IMG/VR virus record: IMGVR_UViG_3300039456_000011
Span: 1 to 36,458 of that record
Direction: 5' to 3' (one strand)
Length of the DNA: 36,458 bases
Origin: a virus
Positions within the stretch are counted from its first letter, which is position 1. Each line of letters begins with the position of its first letter. The position numbers were made by a program, and so were the translations under genes. Shown here piece after piece: positions 18,343 to 34,651 of this stretch. Under the pieces are notes generated by a model, which was not told the DNA's origin, did no database searches, and saw only the letters and a program-made list of their open reading frames with translations.

Positions 18343-19926
18343 ATGGAAAATCAGAAAAAACGCGCAAGCCAAGGCACTGTCGACCTTGCCGCTGTTATCA
18401 GTGACACGATTGACCGTATTAAAAAAATAGATGGCCACGCTGATTGGGATCAGTCAGAAAAGACACGTAGGCATAAGGTTTTAGCGGAATCAGTTAAAAA
18501 CAAACTGCACGAAGATGGCCGCCGAAGCGATGAAAACAAGGTTTCGCTGGCAACCTATCGCCGTTATTTGACTGACGTTAGAAAAGCGATTACCGCCGAA
18601 AACATGCACCACCATAACCTAGAAAAAAAGTTGGATGTATTGGCGCGGCGGTATCCAAAACACAGCGCTGAATTGCTGGCTATAAAGCGCGGCAACATTA
18701 GCGACACGCGACTGGCACACAAGGCGGCGCTTGAGTCTCTAATCGACGAATCAGAGGCTTACAGTGACTTGAAAGCGATCATTATTGATCATGAAATCAT
18801 GCGTCACTTGTCTATGGCGTCCGCGCAAAAAACGAAACTATCAAACCAGCAGCAAGCGGCCCTTGAAGAAAAGAAACATAACGCTGTCGAAATTGACAAA
18901 GACTGGCTACTGGTTACGACAGAAAGCCTTTTAAAGCCTGATACAGACAGCCAGATCAGCTTTGCGCGCTTAGCGCTTGGTATCGCGTTTGCTACTGGTC
19001 GCCGTGCGATTGAAGTGCTTTATCAGGGCAACTTTGAAGCGGCTGGAAAATATGAGCTCACATTTTCAGGCTTTGCTAAAAAGCGCGGCGGTGCTGATTA
19101 CAGCAACAAAGCGCGAATTTATACCATCGTACCCGCCTCTGACGTGTTAGCCGCGGTTGAACTGCTACGCCAACAGCCAGAAATTGAAGCTATGCGTAAC
19201 GACTTTGGAAGCCTCCCAGAAGGTGAGCGTAACCGCGCGGTTAACCATCGCGCGGCGGCAAACCTAAACAACACCGCAAAACGCGTTTTTGGTGATGAAA
19301 CCCGCGTATTTCGCGACAGCCGCGCCGTATGGGCAAGGTTCGTTTTTGAAGAACATTTTCGCAAAGACCCGCGCTGGAAAAAATTAGACGAAGACGTGTT
19401 CTGGCACCAGCAACTAGGGCACGAAGACCTAGACACCCAGCAAGCGTACAAGCAATTTAAACTAATCGAAGTCGAGCGCGGAGGCGATCAAGACCGCCTT
19501 TCTGCAGTCAAAGCACTGGCCAGAAACCCAGAAGTTATGAAGCGTGGTGCATTACAAAAAATAAACGCCTGGGCGGTTTCAGTGCTCGAAAACGACCCTA
19601 CGGACAAAATCACACAGCATCGAATTATCAGCGAGCTAGGATCTGGCCGGGGCGTGATTAAAGACTGGCTAACACTTGCTGAAGATGCGTTAAACCTTGA
19701 TCCGGTGGCAAATCGCACCAAAAAACACGAAGAAAAGCCGCAAAGCAAAGAAGAAAGCAAACCAGCGGCCCAAATGGATAAACCGCGCATCCGCGCTACT
19801 AAAGACGGCGGCTGGTGGTTGGTGTCTATCGAGATTGGCGGCGCTGAATATGAATACACATACCACGCCGACGAATATGGCCGTGGTGATGCTATGGCCG
19901 CCGCATGGGCTGAGCACGCTGAATAA
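18343..19926 (+). CDS. telN: Protelomerase (telomere resolvase)
   Basis: Enzyme of 527 residues that cuts the replicated telomere palindrome and seals hairpin ends by a tyrosine-recombinase mechanism. Direct matches to what I recall of N15 TelN include TGRRAIEVLYQGNF with GKYELTFSGFAKKR, RVFRDSRAVWAR, DPRWKKLDEDVF and LGHEDLDTQQAYKQFKL. The expected catalytic set is present: Arg 220/221, Lys 246/247, Arg 327, His 360 and Tyr 369. A C-terminal domain (GGWWLVSIEIGGAEYEY) also has a TelN counterpart. It is shorter than TelN (631), mainly in the N-terminal part and the acidic linker. Start ATG with GAGGG upstream. It lies directly beside its likely target at 18165-18242. Confidence 0.97.
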   Translation: MENQKKRASQGTVDLAAVISDTIDRIKKIDGHADWDQSEKTRRHKVLAESVKNKLHEDGRRSDENKVSLATYRRYLTDVRKAITAENMHHHNLEKKLDVLARRYPKHSAELLAIKRGNISDTRLAHKAALESLIDESEAYSDLKAIIIDHEIMRHLSMASAQKTKLSNQQQAALEEKKHNAVEIDKDWLLVTTESLLKPDTDSQISFARLALGIAFATGRRAIEVLYQGNFEAAGKYELTFSGFAKKRGGADYSNKARIYTIVPASDVLAAVELLRQQPEIEAMRNDFGSLPEGERNRAVNHRAAANLNNTAKRVFGDETRVFRDSRAVWARFVFEEHFRKDPRWKKLDEDVFWHQQLGHEDLDTQQAYKQFKLIEVERGGDQDRLSAVKALARNPEVMKRGALQKINAWAVSVLENDPTDKITQHRIISELGSGRGVIKDWLTLAEDALNLDPVANRTKKHEEKPQSKEESKPAAQMDKPRIRATKDGGWWLVSIEIGGAEYEYTYHADEYGRGDAMAAAWAEHAE

Positions 19927-20113
19927 GCGGGCAATGACTCACCCGCCTGACCATTTCGAGCACATGCTCGGAGTGGTCACGCGCAACCCCTAAAACAATA
20001 GCCTCCGGCTGGCCCTGCAGGGCTGGCGACATCGAAACCACATCAAGTATGGCTTGTATTTGAGATACTGAGCGCTGAAGTTCGTCGATCAAACTTTGAT
20101 AATCCGTATGCAT
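19892..20113 (-). CDS. Small unknown helical protein
   Basis: Protein of 73 residues (LIDELQRSVSQIQAILDVV, HSEHVLEMVRRVSHC). AGGGA lies about eight bases before the ATG. It runs against telN and overlaps its last 35 bases. No family recognised. It is one of several short minus-strand genes between telN and repA. Confidence 0.58.
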   Translation of the reverse strand: MHTDYQSLIDELQRSVSQIQAILDVVSMSPALQGQPEAIVLGVARDHSEHVLEMVRRVSHCPLIQRAQPMRRP

Positions 20114-28064: not shown

Positions 28065-28685
28065 ATGTTGACAGAAGCCGGTAAAAACAATCTGAGAAGT
28101 TTTATATTTTCAGTGTTTTCAGTACATGCACCGTCTCGCAGCTTTGACTATGCCGCGATACGTGTGCAGTCGTCCGCGCCTGTGTCTGCCCCCATGCCTG
28201 TGACCATGTCACAACTCGAAAACAGGTCATACGTTGCCGCCATTCGCCAGCTATCAACCCCCGCCGCCGCGTGGGTACGTTGGGCGTATGCGAGCCGACA
28301 CCCAGACGCCGCCAATCACGATATGGAAATCGTCGCGCGGAATCTATGGGATGACTACAGCAGCACCCTGCACAGCACCACCGAAGAACAGCGCGAACGA
28401 ATTATGCGACTTGTACAGCCAGCAATGGAGCAAGTCGCTTTCGTTCAGCGTTTAGGAAAAAAGCGATATAGCCGCGCCGATTTGTACGATCTAACGGGCT
28501 GCCCTGAAAGCTCATGGCAGCGCGATATGCAACCGCATTGGAAAGCACTCCAAGACAATCTAAAAAACCAAGACAACGCCGCCTTACGCCGCCTAAGCCT
28601 GATTTTTGACATTGTCGATCAACGTAAAGCGCTTGGGAGCGCTAACGAAATTGCCGCAGATGCACAAATGAGCATTGCGGTTTAA
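28065..28685 (+). CDS. Right-arm early gene, unknown, possible antiterminator
   Basis: Protein of 206 residues with AGGGGG five bases before the ATG. It contains TPAAAWVRWAYASRHPDAANHD and ARNLWDDYSS, then KKRYSRADLYDLTGCPESSWQRD, which could be a helix-turn-helix. The Trp/Arg-rich WVRWAY segment is reminiscent of late antiterminators, and the genome otherwise lacks an obvious Q, but this is weak. It runs in step with the gene before it (13-base gap). Confidence 0.6.
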   Translation: MLTEAGKNNLRSFIFSVFSVHAPSRSFDYAAIRVQSSAPVSAPMPVTMSQLENRSYVAAIRQLSTPAAAWVRWAYASRHPDAANHDMEIVARNLWDDYSSTLHSTTEEQRERIMRLVQPAMEQVAFVQRLGKKRYSRADLYDLTGCPESSWQRDMQPHWKALQDNLKNQDNAALRRLSLIFDIVDQRKALGSANEIAADAQMSIAV

Positions 28686-28744: not shown

Positions 28745-30145
28745 ATGCTTTTAAAACAACTCACGTCATATCAGATCGAAATGCCTACCACGGCCACTGA
28801 CCAGCCAATCGCGCTGGTGCCAACCGAATGGCGCGATCATATCGAACAAAGCGCTCAATCCATGCGCATACGCCCGCTAACGGCGCTACAGCAAACTGGC
28901 TCAGGCTTTGAGCCGCCGTTGCATAAAATAAACAGTGAATACGTTGTGGCCGCCGATTCGTGCGGGTTGTTGTTGCTGTGTTACCGGATTGATACCAAGG
29001 CGATCAACGCCGCCGGCATTAAAGAATCGGTCGAAGCGAAGGCCAAAATCATCGAGCACGAAGAAGGCCGTCGCGTTCGCAAATTAGAGCGCGAAGCAAT
29101 ACACGACGATTTTGTGATAAAAGCCCTTCCGCACATCCAGCCCACGCCAAAACGCATTTTAATATTGCTCGACCTACGCCGGTACCGCGTTTTGATTGGC
29201 ACAAAGTCAGAAGACTTGGCGACGACATTACGCCGCTTATTAGCAGAACACATCGTGCCAGGTTACGAAGTGGAAACCGCTGACGAAAAAGAAACACGCC
29301 GCCCGCGCTTCATCGTCGATAGCAACTGCAAAGGCGACCCGCGCGAACATTACCGACAGTGGATGATTCAAGGTGTTCAAGGCCTGCAACTGCATGACGG
29401 CGCATACCTTGAAAAAGAAGCCTCAAAAAACATCATCGTGACCGGCCAAGCTAATGACGCCCAGGTTATCACCGATGCATTAGATGACGGTTACCAGCCG
29501 TTTCAGGTGTCTGTCAGTGTGATGAATACCGAAGCCGACAGCGTTATCGCTGACGTTGTGCTTGATCGTTTCGGGCAATACACGGCAATACGTATCCCCG
29601 GCCATCTTGAAATCATCAAAAGCACCCACGAAGACGAAAAAGAAGCCGCGCTGGCCGACCTACACGCGAACATGGTGCTCACAGCAGGCACGGCGCACGA
29701 CGTAGAACACGCAGTAAAAGTGGCATTTGGTGACCAGCTTGAAATCGAAGGCATATTAAAAAAAGCACTTGATATGCAGCGAACCGCAATTATTGGAACC
29801 TCTCTAATTTCTAAAGTGATGGCTACCGCGTCTTTAAATATGCCAACTGATTCAACCCAGACCATGACATACAAAGTCGGTCAAGGATCAGAGCCAATCG
29901 CCGCCCATCCTGATGTGATCGAAGTTAATGTTCCGGCTCTAGATGATGAACTTTATCAGAGTGTTCGGAGGTTCGTTGTTGAAAACCAAAAATGTTCAAT
30001 TTCCGGAATTCAGCGCAATTTCAAACTTGGTTACAACCACGCCGCGCGATTAGTTGACGAACTTGAAAGTTGGGGGGTGGTAACGCCGCCTGACAGTTAT
30101 GGACACCGAGACGTTTTAGATAAAAAACCAGAAGGCATTTCTTAA
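28745..30145 (+). CDS. RdgC-like protein fused to an FtsK gamma winged-helix domain
   Basis: Protein of 466 residues. Residues 1 to about 290 follow the plan of RdgC, a ring-shaped DNA-binding protein that limits RecA: MLLKQLTSYQI at the start, VEAKAKIIEHEEGRRVRKLERE followed by ALPHIQP (RdgC has an acidic-basic helix then LLPRAF), ILILLDLRRYRVLIGT and QGLQLHDGAYL. Residues about 400-459 (ELYQSVRRFVVENQKCSISG, GYNHAARLVDELESWGVV, HRDVL) are a clear FtsK gamma domain, the module that reads KOPS on chromosomes. No FtsK motor is present. GGGAAGAAG precedes the ATG. It precedes ssb and follows octad array 3. Confidence 0.84.
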   Translation: MLLKQLTSYQIEMPTTATDQPIALVPTEWRDHIEQSAQSMRIRPLTALQQTGSGFEPPLHKINSEYVVAADSCGLLLLCYRIDTKAINAAGIKESVEAKAKIIEHEEGRRVRKLEREAIHDDFVIKALPHIQPTPKRILILLDLRRYRVLIGTKSEDLATTLRRLLAEHIVPGYEVETADEKETRRPRFIVDSNCKGDPREHYRQWMIQGVQGLQLHDGAYLEKEASKNIIVTGQANDAQVITDALDDGYQPFQVSVSVMNTEADSVIADVVLDRFGQYTAIRIPGHLEIIKSTHEDEKEAALADLHANMVLTAGTAHDVEHAVKVAFGDQLEIEGILKKALDMQRTAIIGTSLISKVMATASLNMPTDSTQTMTYKVGQGSEPIAAHPDVIEVNVPALDDELYQSVRRFVVENQKCSISGIQRNFKLGYNHAARLVDELESWGVVTPPDSYGHRDVLDKKPEGIS

Positions 30146-31176: not shown

Positions 31177-31683
31177 ATGACCGATACAAACAACGCCATG
31201 ACAATTAAAGAAATGGCATTAAAACAACTGCTAAAGCTGCAGCCATGCACAAGCGCTGATTTACGAGAGGCTTGCAACTGGCCAGACCGTCAGCCCGCCA
31301 ACGTTCTAAGCGTGTTGCGACGTGAAGGCCTAGCGGTATTGATCGACGGTGAAAACTTCCTAACTGACGACGGCGTAAAAGCGGCAAATGGGGAAACCCC
31401 ACTAACGCGCCCCGCGCCGCCGGTAGAAATAACCCAGCGTCCAATCAGCAAAAAAGCTCAGACGGTGAAGGCCGATATTCAAAAAGCAAAGACGGCCTTA
31501 GAAAATATTAAATCCAACGAAAACCGGAAAACCGGAAAACCGGAAAGCCGGCCCCGCGAAAGTTTTGCTGGTGACTATCAATTACTTGAACGAATGATAG
31601 AAACATTCGCGAGCGCCGCCGATGATTTAAAGCGTATTAAAAACCGTCTTCAAAAACTGGACGCAACCACAGGGCAGGGCTAA
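31177..31683 (+). CDS. Probable winged-helix protein with an octad array in its coding sequence
   Basis: Protein of 168 residues from the ATG at 31177 (a GTG at 31171 overlaps the previous stop). The first 65 residues (IKEMALKQLLKLQPCTSADLREA, ANVLSVLRREGLAVLIDGENFL) look like a winged helix. A helical C-terminus follows (YQLLERMIETFASAADDLKRIKNRL). Between them the octad repeat encodes NRKTGKPESRP, a flexible basic linker. Function unknown. Confidence 0.7.
   Translation: MTDTNNAMTIKEMALKQLLKLQPCTSADLREACNWPDRQPANVLSVLRREGLAVLIDGENFLTDDGVKAANGETPLTRPAPPVEITQRPISKKAQTVKADIQKAKTALENIKSNENRKTGKPESRPRESFAGDYQLLERMIETFASAADDLKRIKNRLQKLDATTGQG
31524..31551. repeat. Octad-box array 5, inside a coding sequence
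   Basis: CCGG at 31524, 31532, 31540 and 31548 in 8-bp register with AAAA-type spacers. It has no ACGT box, unlike the intergenic arrays. Confidence 0.85.
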
Positions 31684-31685
31684 CT

Positions 31686-31919
31686 ATGGAATCAATTATT
31701 ATATTTTCTGCAATAATTGGTGTGATTATTATTGCCGCGATTTTTGGCTTAGCCGTAGGAATTAAAATCGTGGCGATATGTATGGTCGAGGCAACAGGTT
31801 ACTGGTTGCTACCAAAAAACCACTGCACATACCCAGCCTGTAACTGCCCATTTGACGCCCCGGCAGATCCGAACTGGTGCGCCCGTGGATATCCCCACAA
31901 AAAGGCTGAATCAAAATGA
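31686..31919 (+). CDS. Small membrane protein
   Basis: Protein of 77 residues with a hydrophobic N-terminus (ESIIIFSAIIGVIIIAAIFGL, then VGIKIVAICMVEA) making one or two membrane segments, then a Cys-rich tail with CTYPACNC and WC. AGGG precedes the ATG. It overlaps the next start (ATGA). Confidence 0.66.
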   Translation: MESIIIFSAIIGVIIIAAIFGLAVGIKIVAICMVEATGYWLLPKNHCTYPACNCPFDAPADPNWCARGYPHKKAESK

Positions 31920-32254
31920 ACAACGCCATGGCTAAGCTTGCCGAAAAATTAGGCATTGATCACGCAAAAATGACGCGCGAAAAAATGGCTGAAGTAGTCA
32001 GCGAAAAAGCACTGTCTCACATCATTGAATTAGAGCGTGTGAACCATATACCCGCCGCTGGAGAGGTGTTTAGCGTGATAGCGGGAAAATATGAAGGTAA
32101 TGAAATAAATTGCAAATATAGCGACGAATTCCCAACGCTGGACGAGTCGATCTCTGCCTACGACCAGGTGGACACTTATCCGTGGGCATACATCAAATAC
32201 AAGGGGCGAGTGCTCGATGTGTTTTGGAACGGCTACGACCCCTTTAAGAGGTAG
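31916..32254 (+). CDS. Unknown protein at the head of the cassette cluster
   Basis: Protein of 112 residues (LAEKLGIDHAKMTREKMAEVV, then GEVFSVIAGKYEGNEINC, PWAYIKYKGRVLDVFWNGYDPF). The stop is three bases before the first attC-like site, as in integron cassettes, but the 5' end overlaps the previous gene. It may be a phage gene or a cassette whose left boundary has decayed. No family recognised. Confidence 0.66.
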   Translation: MNNAMAKLAEKLGIDHAKMTREKMAEVVSEKALSHIIELERVNHIPAAGEVFSVIAGKYEGNEINCKYSDEFPTLDESISAYDQVDTYPWAYIKYKGRVLDVFWNGYDPFKR

Positions 32255-32257
32255 GCA

Positions 32258-32312
32258 TATAACCACAAGCTAACGGGCTGCGAAGCAATCCACATTTGAG
32301 CGCCTTGTTATT
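32258..32312 (+). other. attC-like site 1
   Basis: Bounded by TATAAC (32258) and GTTATT (32307), imperfectly self-complementary over 55 bases. It contains AACGGGCTG (32272) and TCCACATTTGA (32289), which recur in site 4. Confidence 0.74.
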
Positions 32313-32328
32313 GCGCGGGAGGTTAAAG

Positions 32329-32502
32329 ATGGAATGGATTTTAACAATATGTACATGGGGGGTTCTTGGAATCTGCTCGCAACACATAGAGCATGGCTAC
32401 AAAGACCAACAGGACTGCTATAAGGCAATGAACTCGCTTTATGAGGCTAAAGGCGAGGATGTGTTTTTATATATAACTTGCAAGCCAAACCCGGCGCCAT
32501 AA
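32329..32502 (+). CDS. Cassette gene, small membrane or secreted protein (57 residues)
   Basis: Starts at ATG 32329 with GGAGG six bases upstream. MEWILTICTWGVLGICSQHIE gives a short hydrophobic N-terminus that could be a signal or anchor, followed by YKDQQDCYKAMNSLYEA and YITCKPNPAP with three cysteines. The stop TAA lies inside the next attC's CATAAC box, a hallmark of integron gene cassettes. Function unknown. Confidence 0.68.
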   Translation: MEWILTICTWGVLGICSQHIEHGYKDQQDCYKAMNSLYEAKGEDVFLYITCKPNPAP

Positions 32503-32556
32503 CCCAGAGCTTTGCTTTTGAGCGACAGCGAAATAAGACAACAGTGAATTGTTATA
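32498..32556 (+). other. attC-like site 2
   Basis: Bounded by CATAAC (32498) and GTTATA (32551). The inner boxes are less clear than in the others, and the hairpin is weaker. Confidence 0.6.
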
Positions 32557-32564
32557 GGTGACAC

Positions 32565-32735
32565 ATGGCTGAGATTGAAAAAAAAATCGAAATAGCTAAA
32601 AAAATAATCGAACTACTCAAGAAATACGATGATGTCGAGCTTCATAAGTTTGATGACGGCGGCGTGATTGATTTTCCCGGAGTAAGTATAAGCTTTGAAT
32701 TTGACAAGGTGACTGATACCGAAGTGTCGCTATAA
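32565..32735 (+). CDS. Cassette gene, 56-residue acidic protein
   Basis: A short gene: a charged helix (AEIEKKIEIAKKIIELLKKY) then strands (VIDFPGVSISFEFDKV). The ATG follows AGGTG, which overlaps the R' box of site 2. The stop TAA is inside the TATAAC of site 3. Function unknown. Confidence 0.68.
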   Translation: MAEIEKKIEIAKKIIELLKKYDDVELHKFDDGGVIDFPGVSISFEFDKVTDTEVSL

Positions 32736-32789
32736 CCCGGCGTTAATGGGCGGCGCTCCAGCGCCGTCCAGATTGCACGCTTTGTTATA
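32731..32789 (+). other. attC-like site 3
   Basis: Bounded by TATAAC (32731) and GTTATA (32784). GGCGGCGC pairs with GCGCCGTCC around TCCA, with unpaired spacers and extra-helical bases nearer the ends, the attC folding pattern. Confidence 0.8.
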
Positions 32790-32917
32790 AATCTTGAAAG
32801 GGGAATCCGTAGGCTGATACGGGCAGGGCTAAGACTGCGGGCAAAGGGCCAAAAACTTAGCTGACACCGACGCGCCATGCTGGGGATCAGTGCCAGCCCC
32901 CTTTCAAGATTTATAAC
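32784..32917. ncRNA. Non-coding cassette, candidate structured RNA
   Basis: Perfect 20-base inverted repeats (32784-32803 and 32898-32917) enclose 94 bases with no reading frame. Inside, CCGTA pairs with TACGG (about 32806-32823), GCTAAG with CTTAGC (about 32829-32863) and GCTGG with CCAGC (about 32879-32897), giving a three-arm fold on a long stem. I do not recognise an RNA class. A miniature inverted-repeat element is the main alternative. Confidence 0.55.
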
Positions 32918-32973
32918 CAAGATTTTAACGGGCTGGAGCGACAGCGACAGTCCACTTTGAAGGAATTGTTATA
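32912..32973 (+). other. attC-like site 4
   Basis: Bounded by TATAAC (32912) and GTTATA (32968). AACGGGCTG (32927) and TCCACTTTGA (32951) match site 1. The next gene's ATG uses the last A of the R' box. Confidence 0.78.
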
Positions 32974-33167
32974 TGGCTAGTCGTCGTGAAATAAAGCTTC
33001 AAAATCAAGTTCTCTTTCGTGATGAGAAGATATCCGATCTTAAAAATAGATCGGATAAAGCTTGGGAAATCATCAAGGACATATTTGATAAACACGAAGC
33101 TGGTGATGATATCGACAGCAAGCTAGCAAAAGCACTAAACATACTGGCCGAACACGAAGCCATATAA
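32973..33167 (+). CDS. Cassette gene, 64-residue helical protein
   Basis: Highly charged and helical (SRREIKLQNQVLFRDEKISDL, DKAWEIIKDIFDKHEAGDD), likely coiled-coil. AAGGA inside attC site 4 serves as ribosome site. The stop TAA is inside the TATAAC of site 5. No family recognised. Confidence 0.72.
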   Translation: MASRREIKLQNQVLFRDEKISDLKNRSDKAWEIIKDIFDKHEAGDDIDSKLAKALNILAEHEAI

Positions 33168-33218
33168 CAAAGAGTTCGCGCGTCGAGGTACGAGATCGAC
33201 GCGTAACGAGGTGTTATT
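33163..33218 (+). other. attC-like site 5
   Basis: Bounded by TATAAC (33163) and GTTATT (33213). GCGTCGA (left) pairs with TCGACGC (right) around a short loop, with two extra-helical bases on the left arm and unpaired spacers outside. Confidence 0.78.
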
Positions 33219-33230
33219 TAAGGGGGTTAA

Positions 33231-33503
33231 ATGTCAAAAGATCTTCATCTAAATCTAAAGGGCTGCTATTTCGATGATATAGCAGCAAAAAAAAAGCCCT
33301 TTGAATATCGCTTAAAAAATGAATATTGGCGTCGTCGATTAGAGGGCCGACATTACGACAATATACATATTAAAAAAGGATATCCGAAGGCCACCGACAC
33401 AAGCAGAATAATCACAAAGCCATACCGTGGTTATGAAGAGCAAACAATCACACACCCGCACTTTGGGCCTTTACCGGTTGAGGTTTATGCAATCCATGTC
33501 TAA
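33231..33503 (+). CDS. ASCH-domain protein
   Basis: Protein of 90 residues that fits the ASCH (PUA-like) family: LHLNLKGCYFDDIAAKKKPFEYRL, YWRRRLEGRHYDNIHIKKGYP and THPHFGPLPVEVYAIHV. Such domains bind RNA or modified nucleotides. AAGGGGG lies four bases upstream of the ATG. It follows attC site 5 but no attC is seen after it. Confidence 0.85.
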   Translation: MSKDLHLNLKGCYFDDIAAKKKPFEYRLKNEYWRRRLEGRHYDNIHIKKGYPKATDTSRIITKPYRGYEEQTITHPHFGPLPVEVYAIHV

Positions 33504-33699
33504 TTCAACCAACAAAACAAATTTATCGGAAAATTTAGCAAAAAGAATTAGAGCAGCGTTAGGTGATTTTAATGATGACCATGAACCAGTTACGGAATTG
33601 GTTAAGTCAGTCGCCCGCCGATTATCTGCAATCGAAACCGCCAAGAACTTAGGTTCTGATATTGATCGAATGCGAGAAAAACACTGTAAAACAAGCTAA
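33496..33699 (+). CDS. Small unknown protein downstream of the ASCH gene
   Basis: Protein of 67 residues (LAKRIRAALGDFNDDHEPVTELVKSVARRLSAIETAKNLG) starting eight bases before the ASCH stop, so coupled to it. Helical, function unknown. A longer upstream start exists but would run through the ASCH gene in another frame. Confidence 0.6.
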   Translation: MSNSTNKTNLSENLAKRIRAALGDFNDDHEPVTELVKSVARRLSAIETAKNLGSDIDRMREKHCKTS

Positions 33700-33764
33700 T
33701 TACTACTTAATTAAATTATTTTGCTACTTAAGTATTTACATGTCATATAAAAAACGGCATTTTT

Positions 33765-33791
33765 TCTATACTGCGAAAAATTCTGTATAGA
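33765..33791. promoter_or_regulatory. Inverted repeat around a TATACT element, candidate late promoter
   Basis: TCTATAC (33765-33771) and GTATAGA (33785-33791) face each other, and TATACT at 33767 could be a -10. No good -35 is present, so an activator may be needed. Confidence 0.42.
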
Positions 33792-33833
33792 GGTCTATCA
33801 CATCGAGAGAGGCCCACATGTAAAACAATCTTT

Positions 33834-33858
33834 AAACCGGCCTTGCGCCGGTTTTTTT
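33834..33858 (+). terminator. Leader terminator before the lysis genes
   Basis: AAACCGGC (33834-33841) pairs with GCCGGTTT (33847-33854) and T continues to 33858. It lies between the candidate late promoter and the holin gene, like lambda tR' downstream of pR'. Confidence 0.84.
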
Positions 33859-33905
33859 ATGTCGCGCATTCGCGCTGGGTAGTCACCCAATAACGAGATG
33901 GTCAG

Positions 33906-34220
33906 ATGCCTGAGAAAGAAACAATAGACACGACAGTCGGTTTTTGGGCTGACAATCATTTGTATATTTCCATGGCGGTTTTTATGTCTGTAGTAATTGC
34001 TTATAGATTAGTAGGCACGGAGCCAATCAATATTCGCCGCTTAGCTGGCGAATTGATTCTGGCTTTAGTTGGCGCGGGTGTATTTCACGCGCTAGGCCTT
34101 CTTAAGGGGCTTTCTGGCCCTGAGTATTGGCTAATGATATTTCTTGCTGCCATGGGCGGTTTACGCTCGATTGAGTGGTCTTTAAAAGTGTTTATTGCGT
34201 TAAAAAAGGTGTCTATCTAA
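33906..34220 (+). CDS. Holin
   Basis: Membrane protein of 104 residues with three hydrophobic segments (about 18-36, 47-66 and 72-88; ISMAVFMSVVIAYRLV, ELILALVGAGVFHALGLL, YWLMIFLAAMGGL) and a basic C-terminus. It is directly followed by the endolysin (TAATG overlap). It would open the inner membrane at the end of the lytic cycle. The family cannot be named with confidence. Confidence 0.83.
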   Translation: MPEKETIDTTVGFWADNHLYISMAVFMSVVIAYRLVGTEPINIRRLAGELILALVGAGVFHALGLLKGLSGPEYWLMIFLAAMGGLRSIEWSLKVFIALKKVSI

Positions 34221-34651
34221 TGTCAGGTTTAAAGTTTGGTAAACGTTCTGAATCAAACTTACAGACCTGTGATGACCGCCTTCAGCGAATAGCGCGCCGG
34301 GTGTTGTCTTATGGTGTGACTGATTTTTCAGTAATTGAAGGCCATCGCCCGTTAGAACGCCAGCTATCCCTTTATCACGCCGGTAAGAGTCAGATCGACG
34401 GCGTAAACAAAAAGGGTAAGCATAACGAATACCCAAGCCACGCCATCGACGTTTTGCCATATCCTGCCGTCGTTAACGGCGTCGACGTATGGGCCGATAA
34501 ACAGCGCTTTTGTGTATTAGCCGGTTTATTTATGGCCGCCGCCGTAGAAGAAGGCGTGGCTATCCGGTGGGGCGGCGATTGGGATAACGATGGCAATAAC
34601 GCTGACAGCAACTTTAACGACTTACCACACATCGAATTAATAGAGGCCTAA
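34220..34651 (+). CDS. Endolysin, M15 metallopeptidase family
   Basis: Protein of 143 residues that cuts the peptide bridges of peptidoglycan. The zinc ligands fit the VanY/M15 family: YPSHAIDVLPY (H74, D77) and DLPHIEL (H137), with SVIEGHRPLERQLSLYHAGKS and IRWGGDWDNDG as in L-Ala-D-Glu endopeptidase endolysins. There is no signal peptide, so it relies on the holin. The ATG at 34220 overlaps the holin stop by one base. Confidence 0.93.
   Translation: MSGLKFGKRSESNLQTCDDRLQRIARRVLSYGVTDFSVIEGHRPLERQLSLYHAGKSQIDGVNKKGKHNEYPSHAIDVLPYPAVVNGVDVWADKQRFCVLAGLFMAAAVEEGVAIRWGGDWDNDGNNADSNFNDLPHIELIEA

Follow-up and report, generated by a model that had tools for sequence, protein, structure and literature searches.

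A widespread phage RNA family with a tRNA-like frame and an exchangeable module

A structured element and its conserved frame

The stretch of viral DNA analyzed here (IMG/VR record IMGVR_UViG_3300039456_000011, positions 1 to 36,458; 36,458 nucleotides (nt) in total, hereafter the window) contains an element of 134 nt at positions 32784-32917 on the plus strand, for which a previous sequence-only reading had claimed perfect 20-base inverted repeats at the ends, three further helices inside and no reading frame. In the region read closely (31500-34500), the inverted repeat is present and perfect, at 32784-32803 and 32898-32917, and the inner helices were recovered in the predicted fold, which has an energy of -59.7 kcal/mol as compared to -37.4 kcal/mol for shuffled sequences (z -6.0, 0 of 200 shuffles). 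The element is effectively non-coding, since its only frames are an open reading frame (ORF) of 27 amino acids on the plus strand and an antisense ORF of 92 amino acids with a TTG start, neither of which is significant. The outer 7 base pairs (bp) of the 20-bp stem (GTTATAA/TTATAAC) are the R boxes of two flanking attC-like sites, the R' box of site S3 at 32784-32790 and the R'' box of site S4 at 32911-32917, and the remaining 13 bp are the stem of the RNA itself. The first inner helix (CCGT/ACGG) and the last (GCTGG/CCAGC) belong to a frame that is conserved among homologs, and the helices between them form a variable module.

As described by a descriptor and by alignments, the frame consists of a stem P1 of 7 bp, an AAU linker, a hairpin P2 of 4 bp with the loop AGGCUGAU, the variable region, a hairpin P3 of 5 bp with the loop AGAUCAGCA, and the 3' strand of P1, which follows P3 without a spacer. 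Stem P1 is longer than 7 bp in some copies and reaches 20 bp in the window, where its 5' strand is located at 32784-32803 (family core at the inner 7 bp, 32797-32803) and its 3' strand at 32898-32917 (core at 32898-32904). The linker, which is almost invariant across the family, is found at 32804-32806, followed by P2 at 32807-32822 (4-bp stem CCGT/ACGG, elsewhere mostly GCGC/GCGC, with the 8-nt loop AGGCTGAT), the 56-nt module at 32823-32878 and P3 at 32879-32897 (5-bp stem, with the 9-nt loop GGATCAGTG, complementary to the loop of P2). All three stems have sequences of their own in the window copy, and all are paired. A covariance model, R2, which was built without the window copy and without the copy in the Yersinia phage PY54, gave a single match in the window, at 32794-32907 on the plus strand (58.5 bits, E 8e-14), and this match displays the 7/4/5-bp frame with the AAU linker and both loops.

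Compensatory changes were identified in P1, P2 and P3 among the homologs. In an alignment that likewise excludes the window and PY54, both partners have changed in 12 of the 22 pairs (48 cells), a level that was reached in 0 of 500 shuffles, and 99% of the cells are paired in the true register, as compared to 31-50% when the structure is slid. The three outer pairs of P1 were tested separately, because the loci had been fetched by the other half of the motif, and 199 of 204 cells were paired as compared to a mean of 117 and a maximum of 138 in shuffles. There are 21 G-U cells in P1 versus 3 A-C cells, which fits an RNA of the plus strand. A search of the window and the homologous loci against Rfam 15, at gathering and relaxed thresholds, recovered only nearby tRNAs and chance matches. 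With compensatory changes in hundreds of homologs and no Rfam 15 match, the suggestion that the element is a stable structured RNA that belongs to no known family has held up as far as can be judged from sequence.

The stem lengths of 7, 4 and 5 bp are those of the acceptor, D and T arms of a tRNA, and the 5-bp arm is likewise flush with the 7-bp stem. The loops of P2 and P3 are complementary over 6 bp (GCUGAU/AUCAGC) in nearly all copies, and a kissing contact between them is likely, matching the way in which the loop of the 4-bp arm touches that of the 5-bp arm in tRNA. Also, some operons space the frame 8-10 nt from the next tRNA, as if it were one. Unlike in tRNA, the two loops are Watson-Crick complementary and the anticodon arm is replaced by the module, which is mostly 24-190 nt long. 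The likeness is a resemblance of shape and not of membership.

The same complementary loops could also kiss between molecules, such that the RNA would form a homo-oligomer with the module as its cargo or outer surface, in the manner of the ROOL and GOLLD cages. These are the closest known relatives in kind: non-coding RNAs of phages and prophages, of unknown function, that are often located beside tRNA genes and have kissing loops and a variable inner linker (PMC12286853). They are, however, ornate RNAs of several hundred nt, several times the size of the RNA described here, for which no exchange of whole modules on a constant frame has been described, and the Rfam models for GOLLD and ROOL gave no match in the window or in the homologous loci searched. 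Since P3 is flush on P1 and P2 is only three bases away from it, the geometry permits a contact within one molecule as in tRNA, and we consider an oligomer of this kind improbable.

Two deviating forms of the frame were observed. One is a divergent subtype, in which P3 is CCGGG/CCCGG and the P2 loop differs; it scored 22-26 bits and was found beside a normal copy in phage P1 (L436, 20078-20203), in phage P7 (L008, 3342-3463) and in L136 (3702-3827). The other is a second type of frame, whose P3 is GCCGG-AACCGTAA-CCGGC, found in P7 (L008, 2754-2922) and just upstream of the element in PY54 (L005) and P840 (L004). In P7 and P840, the 3' stem strand of this second type has its complement in the 5' stem strand of the RNA that follows, and neighboring RNAs could thus pair together.

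Distribution of the family and exchange of the module

When phage records were searched by blastn with the cassette, a match of 76% identity over 102 nt was obtained in the Yersinia telomere phages PY54 and P840, where a methylase gene lies on one side of the copy and the holin on the other. With PY54 as the query, 123-169 phage records were matched, mostly through parts of its frame, including phages of Klebsiella, Escherichia, Pseudomonas, Salmonella, Erwinia and others. The comparison sequences were obtained by pattern scans of IMG/VR and of GTDB genomes, and the matches in the latter were nearly all from Gamma- and Betaproteobacteria. In total, 257 copies were collected from phage and prophage DNA, and the family is widespread in viruses of Proteobacteria. 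Among the E. coli genomes, 1600 of 5426 have at least a partial match to a consensus-like copy at E values up to 10, which is an upper figure, whereas scoring with the model identified the RNA in at least 5 of 99 and at least 4 of 299 genomes in two samples, which are lower bounds because only 12-38 candidates were scored per genome. Searches of plasmids and E. coli with the window sequence as the query gave no match, and the RNA was absent from 71 loci with related endolysins.

The inserts of the 257 copies fall into 169 blastn clusters, of which 125 are singletons, and have a median length of 66 nt. In 81 pairs of copies the module is shared while both 300-nt flanks are unrelated; the converse, with the flanks related but the modules not, holds for 78 pairs. 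Unrelated here means that blastn gave no match, a definition that would miss relatives in structure only. The most striking example is a locus of 15 contigs around L081, in which about 12 unrelated modules were found between related flanks; when L081 is compared with L330, the two flanks show 97% and 99% identity in their aligned parts, and the sequences that they enclose share nothing. From the covariation and these comparisons, it is almost certain that a tRNA-like frame carries modules that are exchanged between phages.

The module of the window copy is shared with PY54, P840 and L006, and a search for further relatives gave phages of the PY54 type only. Among its carriers, the first hairpin of the module shows a compensated change (GCAG/CTGC versus GTAG/CTAC), and compensated structure is also retained in some other modules. 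This structure bears on the idea that the modules are small regulatory RNAs with no relation to one another, either base-pairing RNAs or sponges, which use the frame for stability only. Variable small RNAs of phages are indeed known from the moron site at pR', namely the anti-sRNAs AgvB and AsxR, which are encoded downstream of pR' in lambdoid prophages (PMC4104026). In contrast to the family described here, AgvB and AsxR bind Hfq, are about 55 nt long and share a common 3' region instead of a frame, with no such module exchange; together with the compensated structure in some modules, this makes a collection of unrelated regulators a rather improbable account.

Some copies are nearly empty, with the 6-nt insert TAGATA in the frame (L315 and L380). 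A hairpin with the loop GTGNRANTC recurs in several modules, some of which are mutually unrelated (L093, L166, L193, L221, L387 and L389).

Genomic setting and the attC-like array

Frequent neighbors of the copies are tRNA genes and, on the downstream side, lysis genes or a terminator. In HK620, HK633 and one E. coli prophage, about 1 kb separates Q/pR' from the holin, and the copy is located in this gap. Copies lie within tRNA clusters in D3, in the Taipeivirus UPM 2146, in P7 and in P1-like plasmids, among tRNA genes in Ackermannviridae phages, and in a 2-kb non-coding gap that contains tRNAs in N4-like phages. Overall, 14% of the copies have a tRNA gene within 1 kb, as compared to 5% of random positions, with 22 of 24 on the same strand, and in six copies the next tRNA begins 8-10 nt after P1. 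T-arm motifs within 150 nt were found 24 times on the same strand and 3 times on the opposite strand. A terminator-like hairpin was identified at most 100 nt downstream in 37 of 206 distinct copies, most of them at a distance of 18-41 nt; the corresponding counts were 6 of 204 for the upstream side and 2 of 206 for the reverse strand. Both the terminators and the shared direction with tRNAs are what a free RNA would be expected to show.

The position between Q/pR' and the holin in the lambdoid phages, and before the lysis genes in PY54, is where a cis-acting leader of the late transcript might be expected, either an RNA with an antitermination role, as put has in HK022, or an element that controls the timing of the holin, and stem-loops are enriched upstream of the copies. 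Such a role would not account for the copies among tRNA genes in P1/P7, D3, the N4-like phages and Ackermannviridae, several of which are located away from lysis genes, or for the terminator that often follows directly downstream, and it leaves the exchange of modules without a reason. Moreover, lambda, HK97 and N15 have lysis regions without the RNA. A leader function is therefore unlikely.

The upstream stem-forming element is located at most 75 nt from P1, often as AGTGCTCTTTCCG with an upstream AAGAGCA, and was found for 49 of 197 copies as compared to 9 of 197 in the control.

In the window, the element is bordered on both sides by attC-like sites in the same orientation, as the sequence-only reading had proposed for the two borders; five such sites are present in all, and this arrangement is that of an integron cassette. 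The sites are S1 (32259-32311), S2 (32499-32555), S3 (32732-32788), S4 (32913-32972) and S5 (33164-33217), all on the plus strand; S3 and S5 fold into hairpins on the bottom strand, and S1, S2 and S4 were identified by the spacing of the boxes only. Five ATAAC...GTTAT pairs within 1.1 kb compare with 0.04 expected, and 0 of 2000 shuffles reached this number. S3 and S4 are the left and right borders of the RNA cassette. Two small plus-strand ORFs, of 57 amino acids at 32329-32502 and of 64 amino acids at 32973-33167, have their stop codons within the next attC site (S2 and S5, respectively), which is typical of integron cassettes. No integron integrase gene was recognized among the window proteins scanned.

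The array at 32259-33217 thus holds four small cassettes. Clusters of attC sites without an integrase (CALINs) are known from phages (Qi et al., 2023; PMC9892861), and the window resembles them in its five attC-like sites with small ORFs and in that no integrase was recognized among the proteins scanned. It differs in that one cassette holds, in place of an ORF, a structured RNA that belongs to a phage family; the passages of that article consulted here mention no RNA cassette.

The sequence-only reading had offered a miniature mobile element that uses the attC boxes as an alternative, and more broadly, the element could be DNA that is moved by a recombinase: a miniature inverted-repeat transposable element (MITE), or a single-stranded recombination site read as hairpins like attC. 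The attC sites that border the window copy, the exchange of modules as if they were cassettes and the inverted repeats at the ends would agree with this. However, the attC setting was seen in the window copy only, and nearly all relatives reside in phages without such an array. No target-site duplication was found in any of 197 copies (0/197), nor is there a conserved terminal inverted repeat sequence, as the outer pairs of P1 vary freely and yet stay paired. The excess of G-U over A-C pairs points to a single RNA strand, and copies run in the same direction as tRNAs and are followed by terminators. For the family as a whole, an identity as a mobile element finds no support, and a DNA element of any of these kinds is very improbable.

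The window also encodes a protelomerase (telomere resolvase; 18343-19926, plus strand; Pfam E 2e-24), which marks a linear-plasmid telomere phage, and ParA. The nearest protelomerases are those of VP882 (45%) and phiHAP-1 (42%), and neither of these two phages contains the RNA. The antitermination protein Q, the presumed activator of the late transcript, is encoded at 28065-28685 on the plus strand, and a likely endolysin, an M15-type peptidase, is encoded at 34175-34651 on the plus strand in a downstream lysis block (a weak Pfam match, E 0.0096, below the Pfam cut-off). The RNA is located about 1 kb before this probable lysis block, a position comparable to that in PY54. The gene at 28745-30145, between Q and the array, encodes a fusion of an RdgC-like protein with an FtsK gamma domain (Pfam E 2e-18 and 2e-21).

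A possible role for the RNA and its modules

We propose that the constant frame holds a hypervariable module at the position of the anticodon arm of a tRNA. The RNA would be transcribed with late or tRNA operons, be cut out of the transcript and be protected by its tRNA-like fold. It may then act in trans as a carrier of an exchangeable payload, for which, judging from the sequences, the balance is about even. The module would bind a host molecule that is itself variable, which would explain why modules are swapped so frequently. Because modules are exchanged so often and the copies lie in variable regions of phage genomes, counter-defense appears the likeliest purpose, in which case binding by the module would blunt a defense system. 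Taken alone, such an anti-defense purpose is a tentative suggestion. In the window, the RNA has turned into one cassette of an attC array that the phage carries ahead of its lysis genes.

In its fullest form, the proposal is that phages share a pool of RNA modules on a constant tRNA-like frame, which are swapped by recombination in the frame and each neutralize one host factor or defense system; we regard this as possible and somewhat doubtful. If true, the pool would be the RNA counterpart of anti-defense gene islands. Modules that counter defenses would represent a new, RNA-based and modular type of counter-defense, and the tRNA scaffolds employed in biotechnology would have a natural precedent in them.

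Several observations weigh against a trans-acting, payload-carrying RNA with a tRNA-like fold. The modules alone fold barely better than chance (mean z -0.6), and a tRNA within 1 kb is lacking for most copies. The frame lacks the T-loop consensus and an anticodon arm, and neither ARAGORN nor the Rfam tRNA model calls the RNA a tRNA. A tRNA mimic with a CCA end was considered and rejected, as an encoded CCA was found in at most 10 of 89 copies at any offset. Four of the six loop-loop pairs never vary and one has a single double change; with four pairs invariant, covariation does not prove the kissing contact. Finally, the anti-defense role, which we put forward with reservation, was deduced solely from variability and location.

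The family appears to be undescribed, as we found no match in Rfam 15 and no earlier description in the open-access full-text literature, and the novelty rests on this absence and on the module system. If indeed undescribed, an RNA family present in P1, HK620, D3, N4-like phages, Klebsiella phages and many E. coli prophages would represent a sizeable gap in phage biology. A constant frame with exchangeable modules is open to direct testing in ordinary laboratory phages such as P1.

The species 1 and 2 RNAs of phage T4 (rnaC and rnaD) are also small stable RNAs, encoded at the end of a phage tRNA cluster, and rnaC terminates in a tRNA-like T arm. Their folds differ from that of the family, and the T4 genome gave 0 matches to the family model (W10). 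Among the copies collected here, an element, AACGGGTTCATATCCCAATCTA, that resembles the T arm of a tRNA is located upstream of the copies in phage P1 (L436, around position 20035), P7 (L008, around 2936) and PY54 (L005, around 3418).
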